A stretch of DNA of 64,000 nt, from assembly GCA_902524535.1 (NCBI GenBank), contig CABZDR010000001.1:485001-549000 (forward strand), in the 5' to 3' direction. The notes beneath the pieces were generated by a model that did no database searches, had not been told where the DNA came from, and saw only the letters and a list, made by a program, of their open reading frames with translations. Positions 8 through 26,254 of the stretch are shown in pieces. Made by a program: the position numbers and the translations under genes. This DNA comes from an uncultured Pelagibacteraceae bacterium (lineage in GTDB: Bacteria; Pseudomonadota; Alphaproteobacteria; Pelagibacterales; Pelagibacteraceae). Each line of letters starts with the position of its first letter. The first letter of the stretch is position 1.

Positions 8-613
8 TTGAAATATTGTGAAGGAAAATTTTTGGGCTTGAAATTAAATACCAATGCAACATTATTAGATGAAAAAAAAATTAATTTATTACTATCATCT
101 GATCTACAAACTCTTGTACTTTCAATAGATGAAAAAAATAAAGAAAATTACGAGAAGATAAGAGTAAATGCTAAATTTGAAAAAATTATGCAAAATTTAG
201 AATTACTTAAAAACATCAGAGAAAAAAAATATAAAAATTCTAAGATTAAAATAAGAATTTCTGGTGTTAAAATAAATACTGATCAGAGTGTTGATGAGAT
301 GAACCAATTTTATAAAGAATTTGCAGATGAAATTGCTTTAGTAGATTATTCTCCTTGGGAAAGTGCGTATGACAACGAGGTTAATAATATACAAGCCGAA
401 TGTTCTGAACTTTATAGAAGAATATTTGTTTGGCAAGATGGGAAAGTAAATCCATGTGACTATGATTATAAGTCTACACTTAGTAAGTGGAATGCAAACG
501 AACATTCAATTAAGATGATATGGAATTCTGATTATTACAATGAAATAAGAAGACTTCATAAATTAAAAGAGAGAAAAAAAATTGAACCCTGCAACAGATG
601 TATAGGCACTTAA
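8..613 (+). CDS. Radical SAM/SPASM-domain protein, C-terminal part (5' end outside window or internal start)
   Basis: ORF with SPASM-like cysteine pattern (CSELYRRIFVWQDGKVNPCDYDY...CNRCIGT); the N-terminal CxxxCxxC is not in the window. Confidence 0.6.
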   Translation: MKYCEGKFLGLKLNTNATLLDEKKINLLLSSDLQTLVLSIDEKNKENYEKIRVNAKFEKIMQNLELLKNIREKKYKNSKIKIRISGVKINTDQSVDEMNQFYKEFADEIALVDYSPWESAYDNEVNNIQAECSELYRRIFVWQDGKVNPCDYDYKSTLSKWNANEHSIKMIWNSDYYNEIRRLHKLKERKKIEPCNRCIGT

Positions 614-1527
614 AAGTTTGTATTATCGGAAACGGGACTCATTCTAAGAGAATTCAAAAAATTTTAAGAACTTTTAAAATCAAATACGATATTTACAAAC
701 CAGTTTCAAAAAAAAATTATAAAAAGAATAGCTTAAAACAATTAAAAAAATTTAATGTTTTTTTTATCATATCACCAAATCATACACACTATCATTATAT
801 AAAATCTTTACATAAAAAAGGATATATATTTTGTGAGAAACCACCAACTAATAATAACAGAGAATTAACAAGACTAAAAAAAATTGACTCTAAAAAAATA
901 TATTATAATTTTAATTATAGATTTAGCAAAATTTCGCAAATTTTAAAAAATAGAAAAAAATATAATCTTGGAAAATTAATTTATGCAAACTTAATCTCTG
1001 GAAAAGGACTTGCATTTAAATCTGACTACGAAAAAAATTCAAGATCAAATGCCAAGCTCTGTCCAAAGGGAGTATTTGAAATGGTAACAATTCATTGGTT
1101 AGATCTTCTTTATCACTTATTTAACGTGACGAAGATATATGAACCACAGTTGACAAATTTAAGTAAAGTTGGAACAAGTTTTGATAATAGTAATATTAAA
1201 GTGGAAATTGAAAAGAAAATAATTGCTGAGATATTTTGCACATACACAAGTCCTCTTATAAATAAGAAATTATTTGTTTTCGAAAATGGAATTGTAGAGC
1301 AAAATGAAAATATAATTTCAATTAAAGGACCTGCGATTAACTATGATAGGAATAAATTTTTTAAACAACCAAAAATTATTAAAAAAATAAGTATAAGTGA
1401 TAAAAAAGATTATCAAGAATCCCTGGTTAAAAGTATTAAATTTTTTTTAGAATTTGTTCGAAAGAAAAAAGTTTTCTCAAAAAAAGAGAATACAAAATCT
1501 TTAGTAATAAATAAAATGATAATTTAA
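598..1527 (+). CDS. Gfo/Idh/MocA-family oxidoreductase
   Basis: N-terminal Rossmann start (VCIIGNGTHSKRI) and the EKPP motif typical of the family; overlaps the upstream ORF by 16 nt. Confidence 0.65.
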   Translation: MYRHLKVCIIGNGTHSKRIQKILRTFKIKYDIYKPVSKKNYKKNSLKQLKKFNVFFIISPNHTHYHYIKSLHKKGYIFCEKPPTNNNRELTRLKKIDSKKIYYNFNYRFSKISQILKNRKKYNLGKLIYANLISGKGLAFKSDYEKNSRSNAKLCPKGVFEMVTIHWLDLLYHLFNVTKIYEPQLTNLSKVGTSFDNSNIKVEIEKKIIAEIFCTYTSPLINKKLFVFENGIVEQNENIISIKGPAINYDRNKFFKQPKIIKKISISDKKDYQESLVKSIKFFLEFVRKKKVFSKKENTKSLVINKMII

Positions 1528-1562: not shown

Positions 1563-4004
1563 TTAAAAATTGTCCCACGTGATAGGTTCGTCTTTTTGAA
1601 TTTTTCTTTTTGTTTTTTTATTAATTATCACATCTAGATATTTTGGAAGTAAACCGCCCGCTGGCCCTTTAATTGTAACATTACTTTTTGTAAATTTCTC
1701 TCCTTTTTTAATGTTCCTATTAGCATATAAACTTTTCTTTTGTGAATTAATTGTTATGTATTCATTGGGCTGAATTTTTTTAACCCCATCACCTAAAATT
1801 AATTTAATTTGTTCTTTTTCCCTCTTTTTCCTTTTTTTAAACCAAATATCAAATTTATTATAAAATTTTTTAAACTTAACTAAATTTGATATTTCTATTC
1901 GATCAGAAGAAAGCATGTGATCAGGCCCCTCCATTTTTTTGTTTAAAGTAAAATGTCTTTCAATTATATCTGCTCCTAGAGTTATAGCAGATTTTGAGGC
2001 TAATAAGTCTGTTGTATGATCAGAAAATCCAACAGGAATTTTATAAAGAGACTTTAGATTTTCCATGAACTTCAGATTTACCTCTGAATAAGTAGAGGGA
2101 TAAGAGGAATTACAATGTAAAACAGCTAGATTTTTATTCCCAGTCGATCTAACAGTTTCTATAGCATCATCAATTTCGGAGATTTTTGACATTCCAGTAG
2201 AAATTATTATTGGTTTATTTTTTTTGGCTACGTGTCTAATTAACGGTAAATTTACCAAATCAGCCGAGGCTATTTTATAAGCATTTACCCCAAGTTTTTC
2301 TAAAAAATCTGCACTTTTAATATCAAAAGGTGTCGAAAATATAAATATTCCTTTTTTTTTGGCATATTCAAATATTTTTCTTTGTGTAACAAAATTTAAA
2401 CTTAGTCGACTAAACAATTGGTGTATGCTTTCTTGCGTACCTATGATTTTTTCTGAATATTTTTCAGATTTAACTTTTTTTGAAACTCTACTATCTGGCA
2501 GAAAAGATTGAAATTTTATTGCATCACATTTAGATTTCTTAGCTTCGTCAATAAGTTTTTTTGCAATTTTTAAACTTCCATTATGATTTAATCCAGCTTC
2601 TGCAACTATAAAAGTTTTATTTCCATTACCAATAACTTTCTTCCCTAATTTAAAAGATTTTTTAAAATCTACTCTATTTAAAATTTTAGTTTCATTAGAG
2701 AATAAATTAAATTTATTTGTTAAACTATTCACAAGATCAAAAGATTTATGAAATAAAATTTGACTATCAGCATAATTAAATTCACCCCCAGCTCCAACTG
2801 AATAAAGATTATTAAAGCTCTCAATAAAACTTTTTATGTAATACGTTTCACTTTTATAATCCATAAATTGCACAGGATAAACGTATGGCTCATAATTTAT
2901 CGATGCATCTATCAAATTTCTTTTATCAACTAAATTTGTTTTAGTTACATCTTTGATCACTTGTGAAATGACATCTTTAGGATTTTTTTTTGAAAAATTA
3001 TCTCCTTGAGTGTAGGTTATTTCTGCTGTTAAAAAACTTTGACTTTTAGGTGCAACAAATTTAGATAATTTTTTATTTTCTGTAATTCGATTAAACAAAG
3101 TTTTTTCTGAGTCAAAATACAACCAATGAATTTTTTTTGGTAAAATTACTTCTTGGTTATAAAATAAATAAACAGAGCAGACTCCTCTAAATTTTAAGTT
3201 ATTTTTTTTACCAAGTAATCTTGAAGTAATACTTATAGGAAGTGTAGATATAACTATTTCATTTTCTCCAATTTTATATTTTTTTCTTGTTGTAAAAATT
3301 TCTGAAATCTTTTTATTTTCAGATTTTAAACCAATTACAGTTTGATTAAATTTAAATTCTCCACCAAGTTTAATAATCTTATCTCGTATTCTGTCATAAA
3401 TGCATCCCGTGCCATATTTTCCCACAGCCGCATACTCTTCATGATAGAAAGGAAGTATCTTATCTCTAAATTTAATTCTATTAGGAGCCCAATCAGGAGT
3501 CATCTTATCGGTATCTACACCCCAAATTTTTTTGGGGTATTTTTCGTAAAACATTTTTCTTAGAGTGGGTCCTACAAGAGAATCAATATACTCTTTATAA
3601 TTTTTTGCTTTAAATCTATTTTCAAGATTTTTACAATTGTTTAGCTCAGACTTTATTTTTTTTCTAATTTTGAAATCAAAATTATTGAGAGCTTCATTAG
3701 AAAATGGATAGTCATAAAACTCATTTAATTTTTCACCTTTTACATTCTTACAATAAAATTTTCCTTCTACTAACAAATCCTTAAAATTTGATTTCCAAAA
3801 TTTTTTCAATTCTATATCAGGAGTGTGAAAAATATGAGGACCAGTGTCTAATATAAATTTGTTATGCTTCCATGATCGACATAAACCACCTGAATTCAGA
3901 TTTTTTTCAATGATTAAAACATTCAAACCTTTCTCCAACAACTTCCAAGCAGTAATTAAGCCTGTTGGGCCTGAGCCTAAAATAATTACTCTATTTTTTT
4001 TCAT
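1563..4004 (-). CDS. Fusion protein: N-terminal FAD-dependent amine-oxidase/UGM-like domain plus C-terminal NeuB-type nonulosonate synthase with SAF/AFP-like tail
   Basis: One continuous 813-aa ORF. N-term VIILGSGPTGLITAWKLLEKGLNVLIIEKN (dinucleotide-binding). From about residue 450, FIVAEAGLNHNG...DAIKFQSF...STPFD...IISTGM...LHCNSSYP...GFSDHT...IERHFTL...GPDH (NeuB motifs). Confidence 0.85.
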   Translation of the reverse strand: MKKNRVIILGSGPTGLITAWKLLEKGLNVLIIEKNLNSGGLCRSWKHNKFILDTGPHIFHTPDIELKKFWKSNFKDLLVEGKFYCKNVKGEKLNEFYDYPFSNEALNNFDFKIRKKIKSELNNCKNLENRFKAKNYKEYIDSLVGPTLRKMFYEKYPKKIWGVDTDKMTPDWAPNRIKFRDKILPFYHEEYAAVGKYGTGCIYDRIRDKIIKLGGEFKFNQTVIGLKSENKKISEIFTTRKKYKIGENEIVISTLPISITSRLLGKKNNLKFRGVCSVYLFYNQEVILPKKIHWLYFDSEKTLFNRITENKKLSKFVAPKSQSFLTAEITYTQGDNFSKKNPKDVISQVIKDVTKTNLVDKRNLIDASINYEPYVYPVQFMDYKSETYYIKSFIESFNNLYSVGAGGEFNYADSQILFHKSFDLVNSLTNKFNLFSNETKILNRVDFKKSFKLGKKVIGNGNKTFIVAEAGLNHNGSLKIAKKLIDEAKKSKCDAIKFQSFLPDSRVSKKVKSEKYSEKIIGTQESIHQLFSRLSLNFVTQRKIFEYAKKKGIFIFSTPFDIKSADFLEKLGVNAYKIASADLVNLPLIRHVAKKNKPIIISTGMSKISEIDDAIETVRSTGNKNLAVLHCNSSYPSTYSEVNLKFMENLKSLYKIPVGFSDHTTDLLASKSAITLGADIIERHFTLNKKMEGPDHMLSSDRIEISNLVKFKKFYNKFDIWFKKRKKREKEQIKLILGDGVKKIQPNEYITINSQKKSLYANRNIKKGEKFTKSNVTIKGPAGGLLPKYLDVIINKKTKRKIQKDEPITWDNF

Positions 4005-5025
4005 TTTTTAAAATTTTTCTTTTGAGCAAATTATATTGCTTAACAGTTAAATTTTTTAATAAACCTTTATTTCCACAAATTCCTATAATTCTTCTAGGTT
4101 TTACAACATTATCTACTATTATATCACCACTGTTTCCTAATATACCTTTTTTAATTAATCTAAATTTTCCACGATTATTTATGAAACTACTATTAAAAAA
4201 ATTTTCAGTAGATATTTTTGAGTCTATAAAAGAATTAAGAGAACTTTCAACATCAAGTCTAAAAACTGGCACTTTCTTACTGGATAAATGTTTGATATAA
4301 TTTTTTGAGAACATACCTTGCCCAACATCAATTATCATTGGGTGTTTTTTGAAATTGTTTATTTTTTTAAATTTTACCTCTCTGTCTGTACATCCGATAA
4401 TTATGTCATAACTTTCAAGTCTTAACTGATCCTTATAAATAATAGAACTTTTGGCCTCTGTATATGATGGTTTAATTATATTAAGAGCATTATTGATAAT
4501 TCTAAGTTTTTTTTTACTTCTTCTTAATAAACTAACTAAACCACCAGACTCTAAAAGTCTTAAAGCAATCTTAGATCCAATATTTCCCGCTCCAACAATT
4601 AAAATTTTTTTACCCCCCACACCTCTCAAATCTTTTATAAAAAAATCTTGGATAAAATTTTCTATTGAATTAACAGTTATATCATTAGGTTTATAATTTT
4701 TTATAATGGATTTACTTATTGTTTCTTTTGTAGCTCTTTCAATATTAGTCAAGATATCTAGTTTACTTGATATTTTTTTTTCAATATCGACAAAAACATA
4801 ATTTACGTTGCCATCAATTTTTTTTGCAATATCTTTTGCAGTTTTATTATTATTTACAATAGCACCCATATATATAGTTTTTTGACTTTCTCTATAGGGT
4901 GTTAAATAAAAATTGTTAGCAAATTTTTTTTTTGTGTTACCAATTAAAAAACAGGTTTTTTTTCTCTTTTTTTTAGCTTTTGAATTTATAAGTTTTAAAA
5001 AATAATTAATTTTATTGTATTTCAT
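3991..5025 (-). CDS. NAD(P)-binding Rossmann-fold protein of unknown function
   Basis: GKKILIVGAGNIGSKIALRLLESGG Rossmann motif in a 344-aa ORF; its 3' end overlaps the start of the NeuB fusion by 14 nt. Confidence 0.6.
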   Translation of the reverse strand: MKYNKINYFLKLINSKAKKKRKKTCFLIGNTKKKFANNFYLTPYRESQKTIYMGAIVNNNKTAKDIAKKIDGNVNYVFVDIEKKISSKLDILTNIERATKETISKSIIKNYKPNDITVNSIENFIQDFFIKDLRGVGGKKILIVGAGNIGSKIALRLLESGGLVSLLRRSKKKLRIINNALNIIKPSYTEAKSSIIYKDQLRLESYDIIIGCTDREVKFKKINNFKKHPMIIDVGQGMFSKNYIKHLSSKKVPVFRLDVESSLNSFIDSKISTENFFNSSFINNRGKFRLIKKGILGNSGDIIVDNVVKPRRIIGICGNKGLLKNLTVKQYNLLKRKILKNEKK

Positions 5026-5099: not shown

Positions 5100-5954
5100 T
5101 CAGACCCAATTACGAGGATTTACCCACCTTTTTTTTTGTTTAGAAAGATAGATTAGTTGCTTCATAATTTTTTTACTTAGGCGACGTTTTTTTTTAAATC
5201 TAATAATATTTTTTATATTTTTGAGGTCTACAGAGCCAATGATTGCATAATCTAATCTGCTTAGTGAAAATAAAAATCTATAAACTAGCTCTTCTCTAGA
5301 TATATGATAATTATTACAAATATTGTCAATTTTTTCTTTATATTTTCTAATCTGGTTTTGAAAGTTTTTTCTGACTACAGAATTTAGCAAAGCACCTTGC
5401 AAAACAAGGGATCTAGCAACAATAGTTTTTTTACGCATTTTCTTTTTATATTCAAAAAAGAAATAACTGTCTGCTAAGTTCAGTGGAATTTGAATATATC
5501 TATAAAGATTATTGTTAATTGCAAATTTTAATTCATTCTCCGAGTAAATAGATACACCAAAATTTTTTACAATTTTGTCTTTTTTAAGTTTTTTTAAAAC
5601 ATTTAAGACTTTATAATTATTTATAATTTTAAGAGAATTTTCATGTAAATATAAAACTTTTATTTTTTTTGTGCTATGACTTTTATTATAGAATTTGATT
5701 TTATTTCTGAAATAATTTTCAATTGTTTTTTCACTTTTTTTAATTGGTAATTTAGAAATTTTAAAATGAATATCTTTATTTTTTAAAAATTTAACATGAT
5801 CTATGGATTTTCTGTATATATCTGCACATTCAAAGATATGAAAATATTTTTTAATATGGGATAAAAATTTTTTTTTATCTAAAGATTTTGGCTTAGAGCC
5901 AAAACCATATTTCAAATTTGAAAATTTTGCTAAACCATAAATTAACTTAACCAT
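5100..5954 (-). CDS. Aldo/keto reductase family protein
   Basis: Overall AKR pattern (YGLAKFSNLKYGFG...FECADIY...KVLYLHE...NFGVSIYS...QIPLNLAD...AIIGSVDLKNI). Confidence 0.65.
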   Translation of the reverse strand: MVKLIYGLAKFSNLKYGFGSKPKSLDKKKFLSHIKKYFHIFECADIYRKSIDHVKFLKNKDIHFKISKLPIKKSEKTIENYFRNKIKFYNKSHSTKKIKVLYLHENSLKIINNYKVLNVLKKLKKDKIVKNFGVSIYSENELKFAINNNLYRYIQIPLNLADSYFFFEYKKKMRKKTIVARSLVLQGALLNSVVRKNFQNQIRKYKEKIDNICNNYHISREELVYRFLFSLSRLDYAIIGSVDLKNIKNIIRFKKKRRLSKKIMKQLIYLSKQKKRWVNPRNWV

Positions 5955-6639
5955 TATATCTGGATTTTTTTAAATCTTGCATAGTATCAATATCCCCATA
6001 GGATTTAACAATTAGCGGTAGTACATAATTTCCACTTACAGAACCTTTAAATATGGTCTTTCTTTTAATCAATTCTATGTCGCCTGATTGAAAAAATAAT
6101 TTAGGCAGTTGTTGTCGTGGAATATTATAAGGCTCTTTTTTATTTTTTATTATAGACTCCATTTTTCCATATTTGTTTATCTTCCAGTGCCTATAAGGAT
6201 GAATTTTGGTATTTATAACAGATCTTACAGAGCTTGATTTTTTATTATTATGTAATTTTTTCAAACCCCTTTCTATTAACCTTGATTCTCTAAATGGAGA
6301 AGTTGGTCTTAGTAGAATTATATAATTAAATTTGGTCTTAAAAAATTTTTCCGATTTTATTAAACACTCTAAAATAACTGGATAATCCTGAATTTTATTC
6401 CCAGCCAACTTTCTTGCTCTTAGAAAAGGTACTTTTGCTCCAAATTTTTTTGCTATTTTTGCATATTTTGTAGATTCTGTGCTTACAATTATTTCATCCA
6501 CTAACTTACACTTTTTAGCATAAATTATTGAGTAACTAAGCAGAGGTTTATTTTTTATTTTTATTATATTTTTATTTTTAATTCCTTTACTTCCTGATCT
6601 TGCTGGGATTATTACAAGGATTTTATTGTTTTTATACAT
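5947..6639 (-). CDS. Acylneuraminate cytidylyltransferase (CMP-nonulosonate synthetase)
   Basis: IIPARSGSKGIKNKNI, LLRPTSPFRE and GDIDTMQDL motifs of the NeuA/PseF/LegF family. Confidence 0.85.
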   Translation of the reverse strand: MYKNNKILVIIPARSGSKGIKNKNIIKIKNKPLLSYSIIYAKKCKLVDEIIVSTESTKYAKIAKKFGAKVPFLRARKLAGNKIQDYPVILECLIKSEKFFKTKFNYIILLRPTSPFRESRLIERGLKKLHNNKKSSSVRSVINTKIHPYRHWKINKYGKMESIIKNKKEPYNIPRQQLPKLFFQSGDIELIKRKTIFKGSVSGNYVLPLIVKSYGDIDTMQDLKKSRYNG

Positions 6640-6771: not shown

Positions 6772-8562
6772 ATGATATATTTGGGAATAAACGTAAGCCA
6801 TGGTGCAAGTGCAGCATTAATGATTGATGGAGAGATTGTTATGGCTTTTCAAGAGGAAAGGTTCAATAAAATTAAAAACTTTATTGGTTACCCAAAAAAA
6901 TCTATTGAAGAATGCATTAAATTTGTGAATAAAAACAATTTAAAGATAGATAAGGCTGGTTTTAGTACTATTAATAACATTGTATTCCCCTTCAAATATC
7001 CTATTGATAATTACTTAAATGTAGACGATTATCTGTCGTATTATTTAGATGATTTTTTTAATAAAAAATTAAAAATAAAAAAAATTAAACAAAAAATAAA
7101 AAATAAAAGAAAATTTAAAAAAATTGATCAATACTTAAACTATAGTAAAATTAAGGAAAAAGATTATTTTTCAAATTGTTCTATTTTTAGAAATTTACAA
7201 AAATCATTCTTAGAAAAACAGGCTAAAGGTTTGATAAATGAAATTTCTTTTATTGACCATCATACCTGTCATGCACATTATTCTGCTTTTGCACCAAATA
7301 TTAAAGAAAATAAATCTGCTATAATTACTCTGGACAGTGAGGGAGACGGGATAAATCAAACATTTTGGATATTTGATAAAAAAAAAAATTCTTTGGAAAA
7401 AATAAACGAAAGTTCTGAATGTGATCTTGCAAGAATATATAAGTTTATAACTTTAATTTTAAAAATGAAACCCATGGAACACGAATATAAGGTAATGGGT
7501 TTAGCCCCGTACGCGAAAAATGAATATTTAACAAGTGTTTACAACAACATATTTAAAGATATCCTTAAAGTAAAAAACTGCAAAGTTTTACATAAAAACA
7601 GACCAAAAGACCTGTTTAGGTATTTATATCAAAAAACTAGGGAATATAGATTTGATAATATCGCAGGTGCAACTCAGATATTAGTAGAGAAGGTATCAGG
7701 TGAATTGCTGACTCAAATTTATAAAAAATACAAAATAAAATCTTTTTCTATTAGTGGAGGTGTTAGCATGAATATCAAAATGAATAAAAATTTATCAATG
7801 CTACCTTTTTTGAAAAAAATATATGTTGCTCCCACGGGTACAGATGAATCTCTTGCACTTGGAGCCTGCTATTATTTAAATAAAAAAAACAAATCAAATA
7901 AACCAATAAAAAATATATATCTTGGTCAGAATATATCTTCATTAAAAATCACTGATACAACGATTATAAAAAAATTAGCTGATCAAAAAAAATATATTGT
8001 AAGAAAAAAAGTTTCTCACGAACAAATTGCAAAATTACTTAAAATGGGTGAAATTATTGCAGTTGCTCGTGGAAAAGAGGAGTTTGGAGCTAGAGCGCTT
8101 GGTAACAGAAGCATAATTGCAAATCCATCGGTTGATGGGGTTGTACAAAAAATTAATGAACAGATTAAAAACAGAGATTTTTGGATGCCCTTCGCAATAA
8201 CTATTTTAAGCGAAAAACACAAAAATTATATCTTTAATAATAAATCATTAGATTGTGAATTTATGACTATTGGCTTTGATACAAAATTGAATAATTACCA
8301 AAAAATTAAAAATGGCACTCATCCATACGATAAAACAGTCAGGCCTCAAATATTAAAAAAAAAATTTAATGAAAAATACTATTCTTTGATAAATGAATTT
8401 TATAAAATTTCTAATATACCTGCTTTACTGAATACTAGTCTTAATCTTCATGGTCTACCTATTTCATCAACAATTGACGATATACTTTATACATTTAAAA
8501 ATAGTGGCTTGAGGTTTCTTTATCTTGATGACAGAATTCTAATTAAAAAGAGATTATCATGA
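6772..8562 (+). CDS. Carbamoyltransferase, NodU/CmcH family (copy 1)
   Basis: YLGINVSHGASAALM, DHHTCHAHYSAF, EYKVMGLAPYA, FGARALGNRSI, RDFWMPFA motifs. Confidence 0.9.
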   Translation: MIYLGINVSHGASAALMIDGEIVMAFQEERFNKIKNFIGYPKKSIEECIKFVNKNNLKIDKAGFSTINNIVFPFKYPIDNYLNVDDYLSYYLDDFFNKKLKIKKIKQKIKNKRKFKKIDQYLNYSKIKEKDYFSNCSIFRNLQKSFLEKQAKGLINEISFIDHHTCHAHYSAFAPNIKENKSAIITLDSEGDGINQTFWIFDKKKNSLEKINESSECDLARIYKFITLILKMKPMEHEYKVMGLAPYAKNEYLTSVYNNIFKDILKVKNCKVLHKNRPKDLFRYLYQKTREYRFDNIAGATQILVEKVSGELLTQIYKKYKIKSFSISGGVSMNIKMNKNLSMLPFLKKIYVAPTGTDESLALGACYYLNKKNKSNKPIKNIYLGQNISSLKITDTTIIKKLADQKKYIVRKKVSHEQIAKLLKMGEIIAVARGKEEFGARALGNRSIIANPSVDGVVQKINEQIKNRDFWMPFAITILSEKHKNYIFNNKSLDCEFMTIGFDTKLNNYQKIKNGTHPYDKTVRPQILKKKFNEKYYSLINEFYKISNIPALLNTSLNLHGLPISSTIDDILYTFKNSGLRFLYLDDRILIKKRLS

Positions 8563-9680
8563 CATTAAATTCTAAAAAACTTTTCTGGTGTAAAAGTTGT
8601 TTAAATAATTCTCTCAGACCTAGAATTGAATTTGATAAGAAAGGCATTTGCAATGCATGTCAATGGATGAAAGAAAAAAAAAACTTTAAATGGAGCGCAA
8701 GAAAAAACGAACTTAAAAAAATGATAAAAGATTATAAATCAAATAGTGTTTACGATTGTATTGTTCCAGTGAGTGGAGGAAAAGATGGATCTTATGTTTC
8801 CTATAAAATTAAGCATGAATTAGGTTTAAACCCTTTAACTGTAACTTCTAAGCCCCCACTAGAGCTGGATGTTGGAAAAAAAAATTTAGAAAACTTTTTG
8901 AAAAAAGACTTTGATCATATCCATGTTACTTCAAATTTTAATGCAATGAGAAAATTAAATAAATTAGGATTTATAGAAAAAGGATCACCTTATTACGGTT
9001 GGTTAACATCAATTTTTTTGACTGTTATTAAGGTAGCCCTGATATTTAATGTAAATTTGATATTTTGGGGAGAAGATGGGGAAATAGAATATGGAGGATC
9101 AACAGAAAATAAAAATAAACCAATTTTTGACATTAAGTATATGATTAATAATTATTTTGAAGGTGGTTATCACGAAATTATTAAAAAATCTAAATTAAAA
9201 AAGGAGGATTTATTCTGGTTCGAACTTCCACCTATCGAAAGTATTAAAAATAAAAAAATTGGTCTAACTCATTGGAGTTACTTTGAACCTTGGGACTCAT
9301 ATAGAAATTATTTATTAGCTAAATCAAAATTTAATTTAGATGAACATAAAGAAAGTAGCGCAGGAACATTTACAAACTTTGCGCAAAATGATCAGTCATT
9401 ATATGCCTTACATACATATTTAATGTATTTAAAATTTGGCTTTGGAAGAACAACTCAAGATGCTGGCATAGAAATTAGAAGAGGAGCAATGACAAGAGAT
9501 CAGGCTAAAAATTTAGTAAATTTATATGATAATAGTTATCCAGAAAAATTTATTGCTGATTATTTAGATTATTATCAAATGAGTAGAAGTCAATTTGATA
9601 AAGTTATAGATAAATGGGCAAATAAATCTCTTTTCAAAAAGATAAACGGTAAATGGACACCAAAATTTAAAATTAAATGA
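8559..9680 (+). CDS. N-acetyl sugar amidotransferase (WbpG/PseA-like)
   Basis: N-terminal CxxC pairs and PP-loop PVSGGKDGSYV; followed directly by HisH- and HisF-like genes, as in amidination clusters. Confidence 0.85.
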   Translation: MTLNSKKLFWCKSCLNNSLRPRIEFDKKGICNACQWMKEKKNFKWSARKNELKKMIKDYKSNSVYDCIVPVSGGKDGSYVSYKIKHELGLNPLTVTSKPPLELDVGKKNLENFLKKDFDHIHVTSNFNAMRKLNKLGFIEKGSPYYGWLTSIFLTVIKVALIFNVNLIFWGEDGEIEYGGSTENKNKPIFDIKYMINNYFEGGYHEIIKKSKLKKEDLFWFELPPIESIKNKKIGLTHWSYFEPWDSYRNYLLAKSKFNLDEHKESSAGTFTNFAQNDQSLYALHTYLMYLKFGFGRTTQDAGIEIRRGAMTRDQAKNLVNLYDNSYPEKFIADYLDYYQMSRSQFDKVIDKWANKSLFKKINGKWTPKFKIK

Positions 9681-10294
9681 AAAAGAAAATTGGCATTATA
9701 GATTATGGAATGGGAAATTTATGGTCAATTAAAAATGCTTTTGACTATTTAGGATATGAAAACCATTTTTTTAGTGATTATAAAAAAATAAATGATTTTT
9801 CTCATATAGTTTTACCAGGTGTTGGAGCTTTTAAAAAAGCTATCAGAAACTTAAAGGATATTAAGTTATTTAAACCATTAAAAAAAATTATTGGAAAAAA
9901 AACTAAATTATTAGGTATATGTTTGGGTATGCAACTACTCTTTGATAGCAGTACTGAAGGTGGATTTACAGAGGGATTGGGTTTAATAAAAGGTAAAGTG
10001 GAAAAATTTAGTACCAAAGAATTAAATTCAAAAAAGATTCCTCATGTAGGTTACAATCAAGTGTTTTTCAAAAAAAATAAGATTTTTAATGGAATTAAAA
10101 ATAACGCAGATTTTTATTTTGATCATAGTTATAGAATTAAAGAATATGATGAAAATATTTTCCCCATTTATTCCAATTATGGGACAAAATTTCTTTCAGG
10201 TTTTATCTATAAAAATATTTATTCTGCACAATTTCATCCAGAAAAAAGTCAATCCAACGGACTTTTATTTTTAAATAATTTTGTAAATAGATAA
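9677..10294 (+). CDS. hisH: HisH-like glutamine amidotransferase (imidazole glycerol phosphate synthase subunit paralog)
   Basis: IIDYGMGNLWSIKNAF, GICLGMQLLF (nucleophile Cys), AQFHPEKS (His/Glu). Confidence 0.85.
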   Translation: MKKKIGIIDYGMGNLWSIKNAFDYLGYENHFFSDYKKINDFSHIVLPGVGAFKKAIRNLKDIKLFKPLKKIIGKKTKLLGICLGMQLLFDSSTEGGFTEGLGLIKGKVEKFSTKELNSKKIPHVGYNQVFFKKNKIFNGIKNNADFYFDHSYRIKEYDENIFPIYSNYGTKFLSGFIYKNIYSAQFHPEKSQSNGLLFLNNFVNR

Positions 10295-10296
10295 TA

Positions 10297-11097
10297 ATGC
10301 TTAAAAAAAGAGTAATTTTTACACTTCTATATAATGATGGTTTTTTTGCTCAAAGCAGAAATTTTAATTTACAAAATGTAGGAGATTTAGAGTGGTTAAA
10401 AAAGAATTACGATTTTAGAAAAATTTCTTATTATATCGATGAATTGATAATCTTAGATGTGTCTAGAAAAAAAAAATTTTCAAATCAATTTGTTGAAAGT
10501 ATTAAATTAATTTCAAAACAATGTTTTATTCCAATTACTGTAGGTGGTGGAATAAGAAACCTAAAACAAGCTAAAACATTATTTTTAAATGCATGTGACA
10601 AGGTATGCATCAATTCTAATCTTGAAAAAAAGCTTATTACTCAAATAGCAAATATTTATGGCCAACAATCAATTGTCGCAAGCTTAGATTTTAAAAAAAT
10701 AAAAAACAATTATTATTTTTTTACTAGTAATGGTTCAATAAAAAAAAAAGAAAGTTGTCGAAATTATTTGAGGAAAATTTTGAAATTACCAGTAGGTGAG
10801 ATCGTGGTAAATTCTATTGATAGAGATGGGACTGGAATAGGTTTAGATTTTGGTATTTTAAAATTTTTTCCAAAAAAAATTGATAAATCCTTAATTATAT
10901 CTGGTGGTGTAGGTAACTTTTCTCATTTGTACGATGGTTTAAAAAATAATAGAATAGATGCAGTTAATACTGCAAATTTATTAAATTTTTTAGGAGACGG
11001 TTTAAAAAAAACAAGAGAAATGTTGATAAAAAAAAAATTAAAATTACCAACATGGAATTCTAAGATTATTGAAAATTTAAATTTTTCAAACCAATGA
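10297..11097 (+). CDS. HisF-like cyclase-subunit paralog, probable ammonia-channel partner for sugar amidination
   Basis: ITVGGGIRNLKQA, ASLDFK, NSIDRDGTGIGLDF, IISGGVGN; adjacent to HisH and the amidotransferase. Confidence 0.85.
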   Translation: MLKKRVIFTLLYNDGFFAQSRNFNLQNVGDLEWLKKNYDFRKISYYIDELIILDVSRKKKFSNQFVESIKLISKQCFIPITVGGGIRNLKQAKTLFLNACDKVCINSNLEKKLITQIANIYGQQSIVASLDFKKIKNNYYFFTSNGSIKKKESCRNYLRKILKLPVGEIVVNSIDRDGTGIGLDFGILKFFPKKIDKSLIISGGVGNFSHLYDGLKNNRIDAVNTANLLNFLGDGLKKTREMLIKKKLKLPTWNSKIIENLNFSNQ

Positions 11098-13461: not shown

Positions 13462-15195
13462 ATGTATCTTTTAGGAATTCATGATGGTCATAATGCATCA
13501 GCCGCTTTAATGAAAGATGGGGAAATTATAGATGCTATACAAGAGGAGAGATTCAATAAAATTAAAAATTTTGGTGGCTTTCCTGAAAATTCAATTTCTT
13601 ATATTTTAAAAAAAAATGATTTAAATATAGATCAGATTGATAGATTTGTATTTGGAGGTTTATTATCAAATGCTGAGGGTCAAGAGAATAGAGAAAGAGT
13701 TTTGACTAAATATAAGAATAATTTTTACAATAAGCATTCATTTTTTCAATTTCTGAAAAAAAAACTTATTATTTTTTTTCCGCAGTTTCTATTAAATATT
13801 AGAAAGAATTTGAAAATAAAGTTATTACAAAAAAAAAGAATTAAAAATTTGTTATCCAAAGGTGTTAGTCTCAAAAAAATTGATTTTATAGATCATCATC
13901 TTTGTCATGCCTCAACAGCTGCATATGGATCAGGTAATAAAAAAGATACTTTAGTTATTACTCTTGACTCGACAGGAGACTTTTCTTCTGGATCTGTGAG
14001 TATTTTCAAAAATCATAATTTAAAAAAATTTCTGGATATACATTCAGATGACTCTATTGGTAGGTTATATAGTTACGTAACGTATTATTTAGGGATGGTT
14101 CCTCTTGAACATGAATATAAAATTATGGGGTTGGCTCCATACGCAGAAAATTCAATTCGCTCAAAAGAAATATCAAAGTTTTTTAGAGACATGTATTACT
14201 TCGAAAACGAAATCTCGTTTAAAATATCTAAAAAAATTTGGTCTGCAAAAAATTTGGGTAAATACATATTACTAGGATTGAAACAAAAAAGATTTGACAA
14301 TATTTCATCTGGTCTCCAAATATTTTTGGAGGAATTTATTTGTGAATGGATAGAAAAATTAGTCAAACATACTAACATAAGAGATTTAGCTTTAAGTGGA
14401 GGTGTTTTTATGAACGTGAAATTAAATAAAAAAATTTCTGAATTAAAATGTATTGATAGTGTTTTTGTATACCCATCATGTGGAGATGAAACTAATTCTA
14501 TTGGTGCTTTATATAGAAAATATTTTGAATTAACTGCAAAACTCCCAAAAAAACTGAACTCCTTTTATCTAGGAAATAGCTATAAAAATGAGGATATTAA
14601 AGAACAATATGAGAAATTTAAGTTTCAAAATTTTGAAACTAAAATTTGTTACTATGAAAATATAGAGGAAAAAATAGCTAAATTGATATTTGAAAACAAT
14701 ATAGTAGCTAGATTTAAAGGAAGAATGGAATTCGGAGCTAGATCACTAGGTAATAGAGCAATTTTATGTAATCCAAAAGACATTAGTTTAGTAAAAGAAA
14801 TAAATTATATTATAAAAAATAGGGATTTCTGGATGCCATTTGCTCCATCTCTTGTTAATGATAAAAAATATTTAGTTAACCCAAAAAATGTAAACATGGA
14901 GTTTATGATGATCGCTACAAACTTTAAGAGCGATTTTGAAAATTTATTCATTGGAGTATCACACCCTTATGACTCTAGTTGTAGACCAAATGTTGTAAAT
15001 GAAAATTCAAATTATGATTATTACAAATTAATTAAATATTATGAAGATTTATCGAAACACAGTATTATATTAAATACTTCTTTCAATCTTCATGGATTGC
15101 CTATTGTTTGTGAGCCAAGTGATGCATTTTATGTTTTAGATAACTCAGGCTTGAAATATTTAGCGATAGAAAATTATTTAATAGAAAAAACTTAA
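13462..15195 (+). CDS. Carbamoyltransferase, NodU/CmcH family (copy 2)
   Basis: LLGIHDGHNASAALM, DHHLCHASTAAY, EYKIMGLAPYA, FGARSLGNRAI, RDFWMPFA. Confidence 0.9.
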   Translation: MYLLGIHDGHNASAALMKDGEIIDAIQEERFNKIKNFGGFPENSISYILKKNDLNIDQIDRFVFGGLLSNAEGQENRERVLTKYKNNFYNKHSFFQFLKKKLIIFFPQFLLNIRKNLKIKLLQKKRIKNLLSKGVSLKKIDFIDHHLCHASTAAYGSGNKKDTLVITLDSTGDFSSGSVSIFKNHNLKKFLDIHSDDSIGRLYSYVTYYLGMVPLEHEYKIMGLAPYAENSIRSKEISKFFRDMYYFENEISFKISKKIWSAKNLGKYILLGLKQKRFDNISSGLQIFLEEFICEWIEKLVKHTNIRDLALSGGVFMNVKLNKKISELKCIDSVFVYPSCGDETNSIGALYRKYFELTAKLPKKLNSFYLGNSYKNEDIKEQYEKFKFQNFETKICYYENIEEKIAKLIFENNIVARFKGRMEFGARSLGNRAILCNPKDISLVKEINYIIKNRDFWMPFAPSLVNDKKYLVNPKNVNMEFMMIATNFKSDFENLFIGVSHPYDSSCRPNVVNENSNYDYYKLIKYYEDLSKHSIILNTSFNLHGLPIVCEPSDAFYVLDNSGLKYLAIENYLIEKT

Positions 15196-21473: not shown

Positions 21474-22148
21474 ATGAAAAAAATATTGTTTTTAGGAAGA
21501 AAACATTGCGAAAATACTTCAAGAATATTTAGATATTTAAAAAAGAAAACAAAAAATGTACAATTAATTTATTCTTATTTTCCTGGGGAGTCTTTAAATT
21601 TAAAAAAAATAGATAAAAATTATGACTACATATTTTGTTTTAGAAGTTTTTATATATTAAGAAAAAATATTCTCAAAAGAGCAAATTTTGCAGCTATAAA
21701 TTTTCATCCCGGTCCACCTGAATATAGAGGTATGGGTTGTGTTAATTATGCGTTATATGATGAAGTAAAGAAATATGGTTGTACAGCTCATATAATGAAT
21801 AAGCATATTGATCTAGGCACAATTGTAAATGTAAAAAGATTTGCAGTAAAAAAAAAAGATACCGTTAATTCTGTTTTAAAAACAACATATAAAAATATGG
21901 AAATTCAAGCTAAAAAAGTTATGAATTTATTGATAAAAGATCCAACGAATTTAAAAAAACTTATCAATAAATCAAAAAAAGAAAAATGGTCTAAAAAAAT
22001 TTACAAAAAAAACAATTTAGATAAATTTTATGAAATAAAAATAAATATTTCCAAGAAGGATATAATTAAAAAAATTAGAGCTACAAATACAGAAAAATTT
22101 AAACCTTATTTACTAATTCATAATTACAAATTTATTTACAGTGAATAA
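21474..22148 (+). CDS. Formyltransferase-family protein (Fmt/ArnA-like fold)
   Basis: AAINFHPGPPEYRGMGCVNYALYD...YGCTAHIMNKHIDLGTIV. Confidence 0.8.
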   Translation: MKKILFLGRKHCENTSRIFRYLKKKTKNVQLIYSYFPGESLNLKKIDKNYDYIFCFRSFYILRKNILKRANFAAINFHPGPPEYRGMGCVNYALYDEVKKYGCTAHIMNKHIDLGTIVNVKRFAVKKKDTVNSVLKTTYKNMEIQAKKVMNLLIKDPTNLKKLINKSKKEKWSKKIYKKNNLDKFYEIKINISKKDIIKKIRATNTEKFKPYLLIHNYKFIYSE

Positions 22149-22155
22149 TTAAATT

Positions 22156-23193
22156 ATGAAAGTTAACAAATTTTACAAAAATCTGAAAAAAACGTACATT
22201 ATTGCCGAAATTGGAGTAAACCATAATAACCGTTTATCTTTAGCTAAGAGATTAATAAAAGAGGCAAAAATCGCTGGTGCAGATGCAGTAAAATTCCAAA
22301 CCTTTTCCGCAGATAGACTTGTTATCCCAGGAACGCGGAAGGTCAAGTATCAAAAAAAAAATTATCATGATAAAGAAACTCATCATGAAATGATAAAGAA
22401 ATTAGAATTGAGTTTTAAATATCATAAGATCTTATTTGATTATTGTAAAAAAATTAAAATTGAATTTATTTCAACACCTTATGATGAAGAAAGCGCTAAG
22501 TTCTTGACTAAACTAGGTGTCAAAATATTCAAGACGGCATCTGCTAATTTAACAGATTATGAGTTGCACAAATATTTAGCAACTACTAGAAAACCAGTTA
22601 TAATTTCAACAGGTATGGCTACTATAAAAGAAATTAGCTCAACTTTAAAAATCTATAAAAACAAAGGTAACATTGCTTTGTTGCATTGCGTTTCAAACTA
22701 TCCATGTTCTTTAACGTCATTAAATTTAAATTCACTTAAACTTTTAAAAAAATATTTTAAATGTACAATAGGTTACTCTGATCATAGCAGGGGTAATCTT
22801 GCATCATGTATATCGGTAGCTCTTGGCTCCATGATAATAGAAAAGCATTTCACACTTAATAAAAATATGAGTGGACCAGATCACAAAGCTTCGTGTACTC
22901 CTAGTGAACTTAAAAATATGATTTACGAGATAAGGAAAACAGAATTAATTCTTGGAAAAGAAAAAAAAGAAAAACAAAGAGAAGAAAAAGAAATGTCAAA
23001 AATTTCAAAAAAGAGCTTATTTTATAGTATGAATTTAAAAAAAAATTCTTTATTAAAAAAAAATAGTCTTATTGCTTTAAGACCTGGATATGGCGTATCG
23101 CCAATGAATATTCCAAGAATATTAGGAAAAAGAATTAATCTTGACGTAAAAATAAAAGAACCATTTAAATTTAAGCATATAGGTAAAAAATAA
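22156..23193 (+). CDS. N-acetylneuraminate-type (nonulosonate) synthase, NeuB family
   Basis: YIIAEIGVNHNN, DAVKFQTF, STPYDEESAKFL, IISTGMAT, LHCVSNYP, GYSDHS, IEKHFTL, GPDH; C-terminal SAF-like region. Confidence 0.9.
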   Translation: MKVNKFYKNLKKTYIIAEIGVNHNNRLSLAKRLIKEAKIAGADAVKFQTFSADRLVIPGTRKVKYQKKNYHDKETHHEMIKKLELSFKYHKILFDYCKKIKIEFISTPYDEESAKFLTKLGVKIFKTASANLTDYELHKYLATTRKPVIISTGMATIKEISSTLKIYKNKGNIALLHCVSNYPCSLTSLNLNSLKLLKKYFKCTIGYSDHSRGNLASCISVALGSMIIEKHFTLNKNMSGPDHKASCTPSELKNMIYEIRKTELILGKEKKEKQREEKEMSKISKKSLFYSMNLKKNSLLKKNSLIALRPGYGVSPMNIPRILGKRINLDVKIKEPFKFKHIGKK

Positions 23194-24056
23194 TGAATAA
23201 TTTTAAAAATGTATATGTTTCGACAGGATATTTCAAAAATTTAAATGGTACGCAAATGATTAAAAAATTTAGTTCCAATGGTATTTTTCAGTTAGAATTA
23301 TCAGGAGGTAAATTTTCTAAAAATATTGAATCAAATTTAATCAAACTAAGTAAAAAATATGACTTGAGAATTCATAATTACTTTCCACCACATGACAAAG
23401 GGTTTGTGATTAACCTTGCCAGCACAAATAAAAATGTTTTAAACAAAAGTATCAAACATGTAATAAGTGCAATAAATCTAGCTAAAAAAATGAAAAGTAA
23501 ATTTTATAGTTTTCATGCTGGATTCAGAATCGATCCAAATTTGAAATATTTGGGAAAAGAATTTTTAAAAACTAAATTAACCAAAAGATCTACAGCTTTA
23601 AAAAGGTTTAAAAAAAATGTTATTTTTTTGGAAAAAATTGCAAAAAAAAAAGGTATACAACTTTTTATTGAAAACAATGTGATTACAAAAAAAAATATTG
23701 AAAAATTTAATACAAATCCTCTTTTACTAACTAATCCAAAAGAAATTGTAGATTTTTTCAAAGATATGCCCAAAAGTGTTGGATTGCTTTTAGATGTAGG
23801 TCATTTAAAAGTTAGCTCATTAACAGAAGGCTTTTCTTTATCTGTTTCTATGAAAAAACTAAACAAATATATTAAAGGCTATCATCTTAGTGATAATAAT
23901 GGCCTAACTGATAGTAATGATAGTTTTTCATCCAAATCTTGGTTTTTTCAATATCTTAAAAAAGATCTAAATTATTATACAATTGAAGTTTATAATAAAT
24001 CATTTAAGGAATTAAAAAGGCAAAAAAAAATTATTGAAGATAATTTAAAAAATTAA
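23193..24056 (+). CDS. Sugar phosphate isomerase/epimerase-like TIM-barrel protein (xylose isomerase-like)
   Basis: FYSFHAGF, LFIENNV, VGLLLDVGHLKVS, GYHLSDNNG. Confidence 0.7.
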   Translation: MNNFKNVYVSTGYFKNLNGTQMIKKFSSNGIFQLELSGGKFSKNIESNLIKLSKKYDLRIHNYFPPHDKGFVINLASTNKNVLNKSIKHVISAINLAKKMKSKFYSFHAGFRIDPNLKYLGKEFLKTKLTKRSTALKRFKKNVIFLEKIAKKKGIQLFIENNVITKKNIEKFNTNPLLLTNPKEIVDFFKDMPKSVGLLLDVGHLKVSSLTEGFSLSVSMKKLNKYIKGYHLSDNNGLTDSNDSFSSKSWFFQYLKKDLNYYTIEVYNKSFKELKRQKKIIEDNLKN

Positions 24057-24062
24057 TTTTCT

Positions 24063-25529
24063 ATGCAACCAAAAAATTACTCAATTCCTGAATTAAATAA
24101 ATTTATTGTACCTGAAACCTGTAAACTAAAAAATTGCCTAAAGACATTAGATAAAAATGCAAACGGTTTAGTTTTTGTATGTAATAAAAAAAAGAAATTG
24201 ATTGGCGTAATTACTGATGGTGACATTAGAAGATACTTAATTAGAAAACCTAATCTAAATTCTTTTGTAACAGAAGTAATGAAGAAAAATTTAGTTTCTT
24301 TACCTGTCAACTCAAAACCAGAAAAAATTCGAGAAAAATTTAGTTCTGAAATTAAATTCATACCTCTAGTTGATAGCAACAATAGAATAGTTGACATGGC
24401 TAGTATTTACCGATTTAGCTTACTTCCTTTGTATGAGCCATATTTGAAAGGTAATGAACGAAAATATATTAACAGATGTATTGATTCTGGTTGGATTTCA
24501 AAAGGTGAATACGTCAAAAAATTTGAAGAGGCTTTTGGCAGAAAAATTGGTGCTAACAACACAATTTCAGTCACAAATGGTACCACAGCTATACAGCTTG
24601 CACTTGTAACATTGGGAGTTGGTCAAGGAGATGAAGTTATTGTTCCTAGTCTTACTTTTGCTGCAGTTTACAACGCCGTCATATTTAGTGGAGCTAAACC
24701 AGTTATGGTAGATATTAATTTGGAAACCTTAGGCTTAAATCATAAATTAATAGAAAAAAAAATAAGTAAAAAAACTAAGGCTATTATACCAGTTCATTTG
24801 TATGGTTGTCCTGTTGATATAGAAAATATTTGTAAGATAGCAAAAAAATTTAATCTTTTTGTAATAGAAGATTGTGCCGAGGCGCTTGGGAGCTATTACA
24901 AGAAAAGACATGTGGGAATTTTTGGTGATGCTGGCACATTTAGCTTTTATGGAAATAAAACGATTTCAACAGGAGAAGGTGGTATGGTTGTGTTTAAATC
25001 AAAAAAAAATTTTAATAAAGCTATGCTTATTAAAAATAATGGTATGTCCGACAAAAAAGCATATTGGCATGAAGATTACGGATTAAACTTTAAGATGACA
25101 AATGTACAGGCAGGTATAGGTTTGGCGCAAGTAGAACAATTTTCTAAAATTCTTAATAAAAAAAAACAAATTTCCAATTATTATATTAAAAAGCTTTCAA
25201 AACTTAAGACTGTTCAATTGGTAAAAACACCAAAAGAATGTGTAAATTCTTATTGGTTATTTACAATAATTTTGAATGATCAATCAAAAATTTCTAGAGA
25301 CAAATTAATAAAAAAATTTTTGCTTAACGGAATAGAAGCCAAAAGGGTTTTTTTTTCAGCCGATGAAATGCATGTATATAGAAAATATATAACTAGAAAA
25401 GAAATTTTTCCTAATTCTAAGCTAGTGTCTGCCAATGCTTTGTGTCTGCCCAGTTTTGTTAGTTTAAAAAAACCTTCTTTGGATAGGATTATATCTATAA
25501 TAGAAAGAGAAACTTTGCAGAAAGTATGA
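24063..25529 (+). CDS. CBS-domain pair fused to DegT/DnrJ/EryC1/StrS-family PLP aminotransferase
   Basis: N-term LIGVITDGDIRRYL plus second CBS-like repeat; then NGTTAIQLALVTLGVGQGDEVIVPSLTF, EDCAEALGS, TFSFYGNKTISTGEGG. Confidence 0.85.
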   Translation: MQPKNYSIPELNKFIVPETCKLKNCLKTLDKNANGLVFVCNKKKKLIGVITDGDIRRYLIRKPNLNSFVTEVMKKNLVSLPVNSKPEKIREKFSSEIKFIPLVDSNNRIVDMASIYRFSLLPLYEPYLKGNERKYINRCIDSGWISKGEYVKKFEEAFGRKIGANNTISVTNGTTAIQLALVTLGVGQGDEVIVPSLTFAAVYNAVIFSGAKPVMVDINLETLGLNHKLIEKKISKKTKAIIPVHLYGCPVDIENICKIAKKFNLFVIEDCAEALGSYYKKRHVGIFGDAGTFSFYGNKTISTGEGGMVVFKSKKNFNKAMLIKNNGMSDKKAYWHEDYGLNFKMTNVQAGIGLAQVEQFSKILNKKKQISNYYIKKLSKLKTVQLVKTPKECVNSYWLFTIILNDQSKISRDKLIKKFLLNGIEAKRVFFSADEMHVYRKYITRKEIFPNSKLVSANALCLPSFVSLKKPSLDRIISIIERETLQKV

Positions 25530-26254
25530 ATAATATTTTGTGCACAATATGTATGAGAGGCGGATCGCAGGGAGTAAAGAGCAAGAATATCAGATCGATT
25601 AATGGAAAACCGCTGATGTATTTTACAATAAAGCAAGCTATAAAATCAGGAATTTTTAACCACATAGTCATATCCACTGACTCAAAAAAAATATTGAATT
25701 GCGCTAAATCTTATGGTGCAGAAGGTTGGTTCATGCGCCCAAAGAGATTTTCAGATAATTACAGCTCAAAAATACCAGCAATTAGACATGCTTTGATAAA
25801 ATCTGAAGAACGTTACAACAAGAAATTTGATTTAATAGTAGATTTGGATGTTACTTCTCCATTAAGAAAAGTTGAAGATATAATTAATGCATATAAATTT
25901 TTTACAAAAAAAAAAGCGGATGTTTTGATAACAGGAACTAAGTCAAGAAGGAATCCCTATTTTAATATGGTTGAAATAGTAAAAAACAGAGTAAGAAAAG
26001 TTAAAATCGCAAAAAAAAAAATTTACAGAAGACAAGATGCACCCCAGACTTTTGATATGAATGCATCTATTTACATATGGAATAGAAAAACTTTAATTAA
26101 TTCTACTAATGAAATTAGGTCTTTAGAAAAAAATACAAAAAGTAAAACAATTTTTTATGAAATGCCTGAGGATAGATCATTAGATATTGATAGCGAGCTT
26201 GATTTTAAATTGGTAGAATTTTTACTAAAAAGTAGAAATAAAAAGATTATATAA
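25526..26254 (+). CDS. Acylneuraminate cytidylyltransferase (second copy)
   Basis: CTICMRGGSQGVKSKNIRSINGKPL, DLDVTSPLR, DRSLDIDSELDF. Confidence 0.85.
   Translation: MNNILCTICMRGGSQGVKSKNIRSINGKPLMYFTIKQAIKSGIFNHIVISTDSKKILNCAKSYGAEGWFMRPKRFSDNYSSKIPAIRHALIKSEERYNKKFDLIVDLDVTSPLRKVEDIINAYKFFTKKKADVLITGTKSRRNPYFNMVEIVKNRVRKVKIAKKKIYRRQDAPQTFDMNASIYIWNRKTLINSTNEIRSLEKNTKSKTIFYEMPEDRSLDIDSELDFKLVEFLLKSRNKKII

Follow-up and report, generated by a model that had tools for sequence, protein, structure and literature searches.

Nonulosonic acids are sugars of the cell coat to which phages, hosts and grazers bind. To our knowledge, all known bacterial nonulosonate pathways start from N-acetylated hexosamines that a dedicated hydrolase has set free, and the condensing enzyme, NeuB, needs the aldehyde form of its sugar. 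The hydrolases, NeuC/LegG and PseG/SpsG, have unrelated folds, supply NeuB with free sugar and adjoin stand-alone neuB genes. The second kind of enzyme of concern here is UDP-galactopyranose mutase (UGM, or GLF), whose reaction passes through a flavin-N5 iminium in which the sugar is open-chain (PMC7662398), and in the Trypanosoma cruzi enzyme Arg327, Tyr395, Tyr429, His62 and Arg176 bind the UDP diphosphate and stabilise the flavin–sugar intermediate (PMC4192007). The UGM-like Fcf2 of Escherichia coli O52, compared here by literature only, is a stand-alone dTDP-fucopyranose mutase that acts on an RmlA/RmlB-derived dTDP-6-deoxyhexose and delivers a furanose to a glycosyltransferase, with no NeuB partner (PMC10888714).

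In the window, that is the whole stretch of 64,000 nucleotides analysed here, both kinds of domain are encoded by a single gene, and a literature search found no paper describing such a flavin–NeuB fusion. The relevant features are as follows.

598..1527, forward strand: Gfo/Idh/MocA oxidoreductase, convergent neighbour of the fusion (Pfam).
1563..4004, reverse strand: fusion of a UGM-like FAD domain, a NeuB synthase and a SAF domain, 813 aa (single open reading frame, Pfam, recurrence, AlphaFold model).
2685..4004, reverse strand: FAD/UGM-type domain of the fusion, residues 1 to about 430–440 (residue mapping, Foldseek).
2679..2711, reverse strand: disordered linker, residues 432–442 (pLDDT below 50 in the model, poorly conserved, no Met).
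1563..2654, reverse strand: NeuB TIM barrel and SAF domain, residues 450/451–813 (Pfam, NCBIfam, residue table, PDB matches).
3991..5025, reverse strand: COMP, a two-domain NAD(P)-binding dehydrogenase-like protein, 344 aa (conserved adjacency, model).
5100..5954, reverse strand: aldo/keto reductase-like protein of the same operon (Pfam Aldo_ket_red).
5947..6639, reverse strand: CMP-nonulosonate cytidylyltransferase, CTP_transf_3, PseF-like (Pfam, NCBIfam).

The fusion gene starts with an ATG at position 4004 and stops at 1563, and its uninterrupted 813-aa frame, already noted in the original prediction, contains Pfam domains of both halves, all above the curated cut-offs: NAD_binding_8 (residues 8–71), Amino_oxidase (14–355), NeuB (484–710, 276.3 bits) and SAF (758–813, 43.8 bits). 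With NeuB and SAF both above their gathering cut-offs, the C-terminal half belongs to the NeuB superfamily. Comparison with the PDB using phmmer gave NeuB, PseI and SpsE as matches and placed the beginning of this half at about residue 447–461, from around nucleotide 2655 downward, in agreement with the predicted NeuB core from about residue 450 and its SAF tail. The AlphaFold model of the fusion had a mean pLDDT of 88, falling below 50 in the linker. Residues 416–469 lack Met in the window copy, as originally remarked, and in most relatives, and a separate ATG start of the NeuB part is therefore unlikely. The start of the fusion frame overlaps the end of the COMP gene by 14 nt, and a scan of the locus for promoters and terminators gave signals no better than those of shuffled sequences.

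Among 397 genomes of the order, full-length copies of the fusion were present in seven other Pelagibacterales species (38–71% identity, no stops) and a further copy lay at a contig edge, about 2% of the genomes in all, whereas 385 sampled genomes of the class contained no other copy. Using the flavin domain alone as query against genome_contigs, we obtained 33 loci, some of them from the same genomes as in the order survey, and every one encoded the fusion. Two separate reading frames in related genomes, which would have spoken for a faulty junction, were not seen. In one locus (L071, 5354–7748; single-cell assembly SCGC AAA288-G21) the fusion was broken by a frameshift inside the flavin domain, which both decay and sequencing error would fit. 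Recurrence in more than 30 independent assemblies ruled out assembly error and chance read-through. According to the record titles, the hosts comprise SAR11, SAR116 and other Alphaproteobacteria, SAR86 and other Gammaproteobacteria, Prochlorococcus, Synechococcaceae, Nitrospirota, Omnitrophota, Elusimicrobiota, Pacebacteria and one Nitrososphaerales MAG, several of these records being MAGs or short contigs in which single taxon assignments may be wrong.

In phylogenetic trees, the flavin halves were united in a single clade (SH-aLRT 99), the NeuB halves fell into one or two, compatible with a single origin, and the pairwise identities of the two halves correlated with r = 0.91. Owing to this clade structure and correlation, the sequences would fit a single fusion event, after which the gene spread between phyla, both halves having essentially one origin. 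A phage origin was rejected, as the IMG/VR scan revealed no viral relative of the fusion and tblastn against phages and plasmids no record covering 80% of the query. The best plasmid match (Ensifer, query 373–812) proved to be a stand-alone NeuB, and so did NeuB hits with long open frames in six other SAR11 genomes (G246, G060, G387, G022, G069 and G279), which had resembled additional fusions. Close stand-alone NeuB cousins in three Alphaproteobacteria (G743, G585 and G756) had no flavin partner in the sampled neighbourhood.

The NeuB half shares with NeuB/LegI/PseI synthases (TIGR03569 and TIGR03586; structures 1xuu, 8h2c and 1vli) the TIM barrel and SAF domain, the catalytic Glu and Lys, the metal-binding His residues and the PEP-site residues. 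The catalytic, PEP and metal residues E25, K53, Q55, K129, S213, H215, E234, H236 and D247 (Neisseria meningitidis NeuB numbering) were kept in 35/35 fusion rows. Apart from the flavin domain in front, the differences concern the sugar pocket. The equivalent of Arg314 was Gly, Ala, Ser or Pro in all 35 rows (Gly in the window copy), as against Arg in 40 of 44 unique stand-alone NeuB rows (Fisher p = 2.5e-18, an optimistic value for related sequences). Of the SAF residues of N. meningitidis NeuB, Arg314 alone lies in the active site, where it positions the N-acetyl group of ManNAc (PMC6795526); the fusion thus lacks the Arg of N-acetylneuraminate/legionaminate synthases proper (TIGR03569). A switch for C2 specificity has been described at position 132, Gly for Neu/Leg and Phe for Pse (PMC7371886). 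It appears to correspond to meningococcal position 133, at which the fusion family carries Met, Ala or Val, in two cases Phe, and never Gly. Because Arg314 is lost and position 133 altered, the pocket around C2 of the sugar is, judged from these residues, changed. Both changes are evidence that the putative NeuB half makes a different nonulosonic acid, so that the new variant proposed in the original prediction gained support from the sequence. The half also missed the NCBIfam equivalog cut-offs of NeuB_NnaB (TIGR03569, 344.1 of 399.65 bits) and PseI (TIGR03586, 293.1 of 340.25 bits), a result that is weak by itself, since a stand-alone NeuB of the same window misses both too.

The Amino_oxidase match of the flavin half (55.6 bits against a cut-off of 19.8) refers to a broad superfamily and does not imply amine oxidation. 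Mapping on the UGMs of Klebsiella pneumoniae and T. cruzi revealed the UGM diphosphate-binding residues H57, H60, Y156, W161, R176, Y296, R306, Y376, Y411 and D413 in 33/33 complete rows, D413 being invariant. UGM and PRK07208 relatives share this set, which amine-oxidase and desaturase relatives lack; residue mapping thus ruled out a generic amine oxidase, for which reason that label is misleading. Foldseek gave T. cruzi UGM (4dsg) as the best match of this half (TMt 0.78, 3.5 Å), slightly ahead of protoporphyrinogen oxidases (TMt 0.74–0.75). By its fold, its diphosphate-binding Arg/Tyr set and its catalytic His, the flavin half belongs to the UGM superfamily (4dsg, 1wam), but it is only 19% identical to UGM, is fused to NeuB, has the uracil-side and Asn201 positions either not conserved or not alignable, and scored 49.5 bits against the 303.75 required for UDP-galactopyranose mutase proper (TIGR00031). 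The closest NCBIfam profiles were of the PRK07208 type (NF005545–NF005549; best 176.2 bits, below the cut-off of 389), stand-alone proteins on a separate branch which have the same UGM residues except H60, F186, F304, D413 and Q415. With each half below the curated equivalog cut-offs, the protein should be annotated neither as UGM nor as a sialic, legionaminic or pseudaminic acid synthase.

The FAD domain had been proposed to oxidise or isomerise the substrate or product of NeuB. As the UGM diphosphate-binding set is present, and absent from amine-oxidase relatives, the flavin half more likely acts on a nucleotide-diphosphate sugar upstream of NeuB than on the free substrate or the ulosonate. 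A true redox domain, close to the original prediction, would work together with COMP and the aldo/keto reductase and oxidise or reduce one carbon of the NeuB substrate or of the ulosonate. This would agree with the Pfam match and with the NAD(P)-dependent genes of the operon. We nevertheless consider it quite unlikely, given that the diphosphate-binding residues are invariant while a free hexose or ulosonate has no diphosphate, and that the fold fits UGM slightly better than protoporphyrinogen oxidases. The low UGM equivalog score, far under its cut-off, would even accord with a domain without catalysis, acting as a structural element or a regulatory NDP-sugar sensor for the synthase, but the full conservation of the catalytic and binding residues H57, H60, R176, R306 and D413 across several phyla makes this highly improbable. 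Active-site decay, which would have spoken against the original prediction, was observed in neither half.

On the same strand, the fusion gene is preceded by the genes for the cytidylyltransferase, the aldo/keto reductase and COMP, in this order. In 31 of 34 loci a COMP homologue lies next to the fusion, and in 34 control loci centred on a stand-alone NeuB it occurs in none; of the three fusion loci without it, two are short contigs and one (L048) is truly devoid of COMP. The model of COMP (pLDDT 91) showed a two-domain Rossmann dehydrogenase fold, with low TM values of 0.3–0.4 among the PDB matches listed (dipicolinate synthase A, shikimate dehydrogenase and MtdB types). An aldo/keto reductase homologue lies beside the fusion in 5/34 loci. 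Most loci with enough context have a cytidylyltransferase near the fusion, belonging to one of three families: stand-alone PseF-like, stand-alone of the L048 type, or fused behind a second NeuB-like domain. On the other side of the window fusion, the Gfo/Idh/MocA gene is accompanied by a radical SAM gene that ends at position 613, and this pair recurs near some other fusion loci.

Several neighbours deserve separate mention. In one cluster type, the fusion and COMP are followed by a protein of about 580 aa in which a NeuB-like domain is joined to a CMP-nonulosonate cytidylyltransferase (L034 13474–15216, L051 7253–8995, L056 5742–7514, L057 11453–13240, L061 8275–10032 and others). A radical SAM/SPASM gene is often present as well, and the NeuB-like domain of this protein carries the changes C182G, N184Q, Y186F and R314K. 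Prochlorococcus AG-347-L20 (L075, 5722–7998) has a further uncommon NeuB architecture: the gene immediately upstream of the fusion encodes a protein of 758 aa whose NeuB domain is internal (residues 130–458). A class-III aminotransferase resembling glutamate-1-semialdehyde aminomutase (L048 6690–8000, with homologues in seven other loci) recurs close to the fusion or to COMP, in SAR11 and at a few further loci, which suggests an amino group on the product.

The local gene content of the 34 fusion loci was compared with that of the alphaproteobacterial control loci. NeuC/LegG was found within 8 kb in one fusion locus (L059) and in 15 controls (p = 9e-5), where it often abuts the synthase, although only 44% of the controls have it at all, and PseG occurred in two fusion loci (L052 and L080). 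In each of these three fusion loci the hydrolase lies beside a second, stand-alone NeuB. The UDP-sugar hydrolase/epimerase is thus outside the fusion module, which lacks the NeuC/LegG or PseG beside the synthase that marks a canonical NeuB cluster. In the 1.11-Mb assembly to which the window belongs, there was no PF02350 protein and no PseG, the latter search yielding only a weak MurG-type match. Genome-wide loss of PF02350 was rejected as proof of replacement: only 34 of 117 SAR11 genomes have a protein above the cut-off, and with most of them lacking one, only the local linkage contrast is informative.

The window itself contains a second NeuB (22156–23193), stand-alone and with Arg314 kept, in a separate cluster (21474–26254) with a formyltransferase, an AP_endonuc_2-type protein, a CBS-DegT aminotransferase and a cytidylyltransferase. 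As no recognised NeuC or PseG accompanies this cluster in the genome either, the fusion is not alone in lacking a hydrolase. Its AP_endonuc_2 protein (23193–24056) may fill the hydrolase gap there, and its DegT/DnrJ aminotransferase (24063–25529) bears an N-terminal CBS-domain extension in one reading frame. Elsewhere in the window, a WbuX-type N-acetyl sugar amidotransferase with HisH- and HisF-like partners (acetamidino-sugar genes, 8559–11097) and two NodU-like carbamoyltransferases (6772–8562 and 13462–15195) occur in the same polysaccharide region.

rmlA was detected within 8 kb in 8/34 fusion loci and 0/34 controls (p = 0.005), a comparison in which the rmlA-bearing fusion loci belong mostly to groups other than the alphaproteobacterial controls. 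Seven of these eight loci also carry rmlB, and in one SAR86 locus (L074) rmlB, rmlA, the fusion, COMP and the cytidylyltransferase gene are contiguous. RmlB alone was an uninformative marker (8/34 on either side at a loose threshold), even though the copies on the fusion side scored far higher than those of the controls. No rmlC was detected in seven of the eight rmlA-linked genomes, which are incomplete assemblies, and for this reason the RmlB product is probably not for rhamnose in those seven. Most SAR11 fusion loci, including that of the window, have neither rmlA nor rmlB beside the fusion, and the genome of the window does possess rmlC, so that dTDP-sugars may serve rhamnose there, which counts against a dTDP-6-deoxyhexose as substrate.

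Taken as a whole, the fusion is very probably a bifunctional ulosonic-acid enzyme with a putative NDP-sugar-binding flavin half and changed C2 specificity. For its reaction we tentatively prefer, at somewhat less than even confidence, UGM-type release of the sugar from an NDP-6-deoxyhexose by the flavin half, followed by NeuB condensation with PEP to a product that would lack a C5 N-acyl group; here we infer which substrate is used, in which direction flux runs between the domains, and that the flavin domain releases the nucleotide. The flavin pocket would take up an NDP-hexose, most probably a dTDP-6-deoxyhexose that lacks a 2-N-acetyl group, and N5 of the reduced flavin would displace the nucleotide to give a flavin-N5–sugar adduct. 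The adduct would open and release the open-chain sugar without furanose closure or re-addition of the nucleotide, and the tethered NeuB/SAF domain would condense it with PEP to an ulosonate. This would be CMP-activated by the cytidylyltransferase of the operon, and COMP would reduce or otherwise tailor the nucleotide sugar or the product. Such a mechanism would account for a diphosphate-binding domain linked to a synthase whose normal substrate is a free sugar, for the absence of a hydrolase from the module, whose proposed step the flavin domain would fill, and for the lost N-acetyl contact. Action on a dTDP-6-deoxyhexose has its precedent in Fcf2, and rmlA and rmlB at some fusion loci would be in line with it. 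On the other hand, PRK07208 relatives share most of the UGM residues. In addition, we know of no UGM-family enzyme that releases a free sugar. The fully specified, hydrolase-free route, from a flavin-N5 adduct on a dTDP-6-deoxyhexose through the open-chain aldehyde and NeuB to a 9-deoxy nonulosonate without a C5 N-acyl group, is rather doubtful.

The two domains might instead catalyse separate reactions of one glycan pathway, a classical mutase forming an NDP-furanose and NeuB independently an ulosonate, with the fusion serving stoichiometry only. Conserved UGM residues would be expected for this, the linker is disordered and variable rather than a rigid channel, and the UGM-superfamily enzymes acting on dTDP-6-deoxyhexoses are known mutases. 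However, neither the genomes of the order nor the genome_contigs loci yielded a stand-alone version of the flavin clade of the fusion, and the two domains share one history, which suggests a functional link stronger than co-expression; we therefore regard separate reactions as unlikely.

Each half is drawn from a known superfamily, and there is a real chance of new chemistry. The fusion provides a protein amenable to assay, and its combination with COMP and a cytidylyltransferase offers a genome signature for finding producers. The presence of the fusion, with COMP and an altered substrate pocket, in SAR11, Prochlorococcus, SAR86 and others points to an unrecorded sugar, and possibly to unrecorded flavin chemistry, in some of the ocean's most numerous cells. 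If the hydrolase-free route were true, the UGM superfamily would gain a new reaction, and abundant marine bacteria would be makers of a new class of sialic-acid-like sugar.
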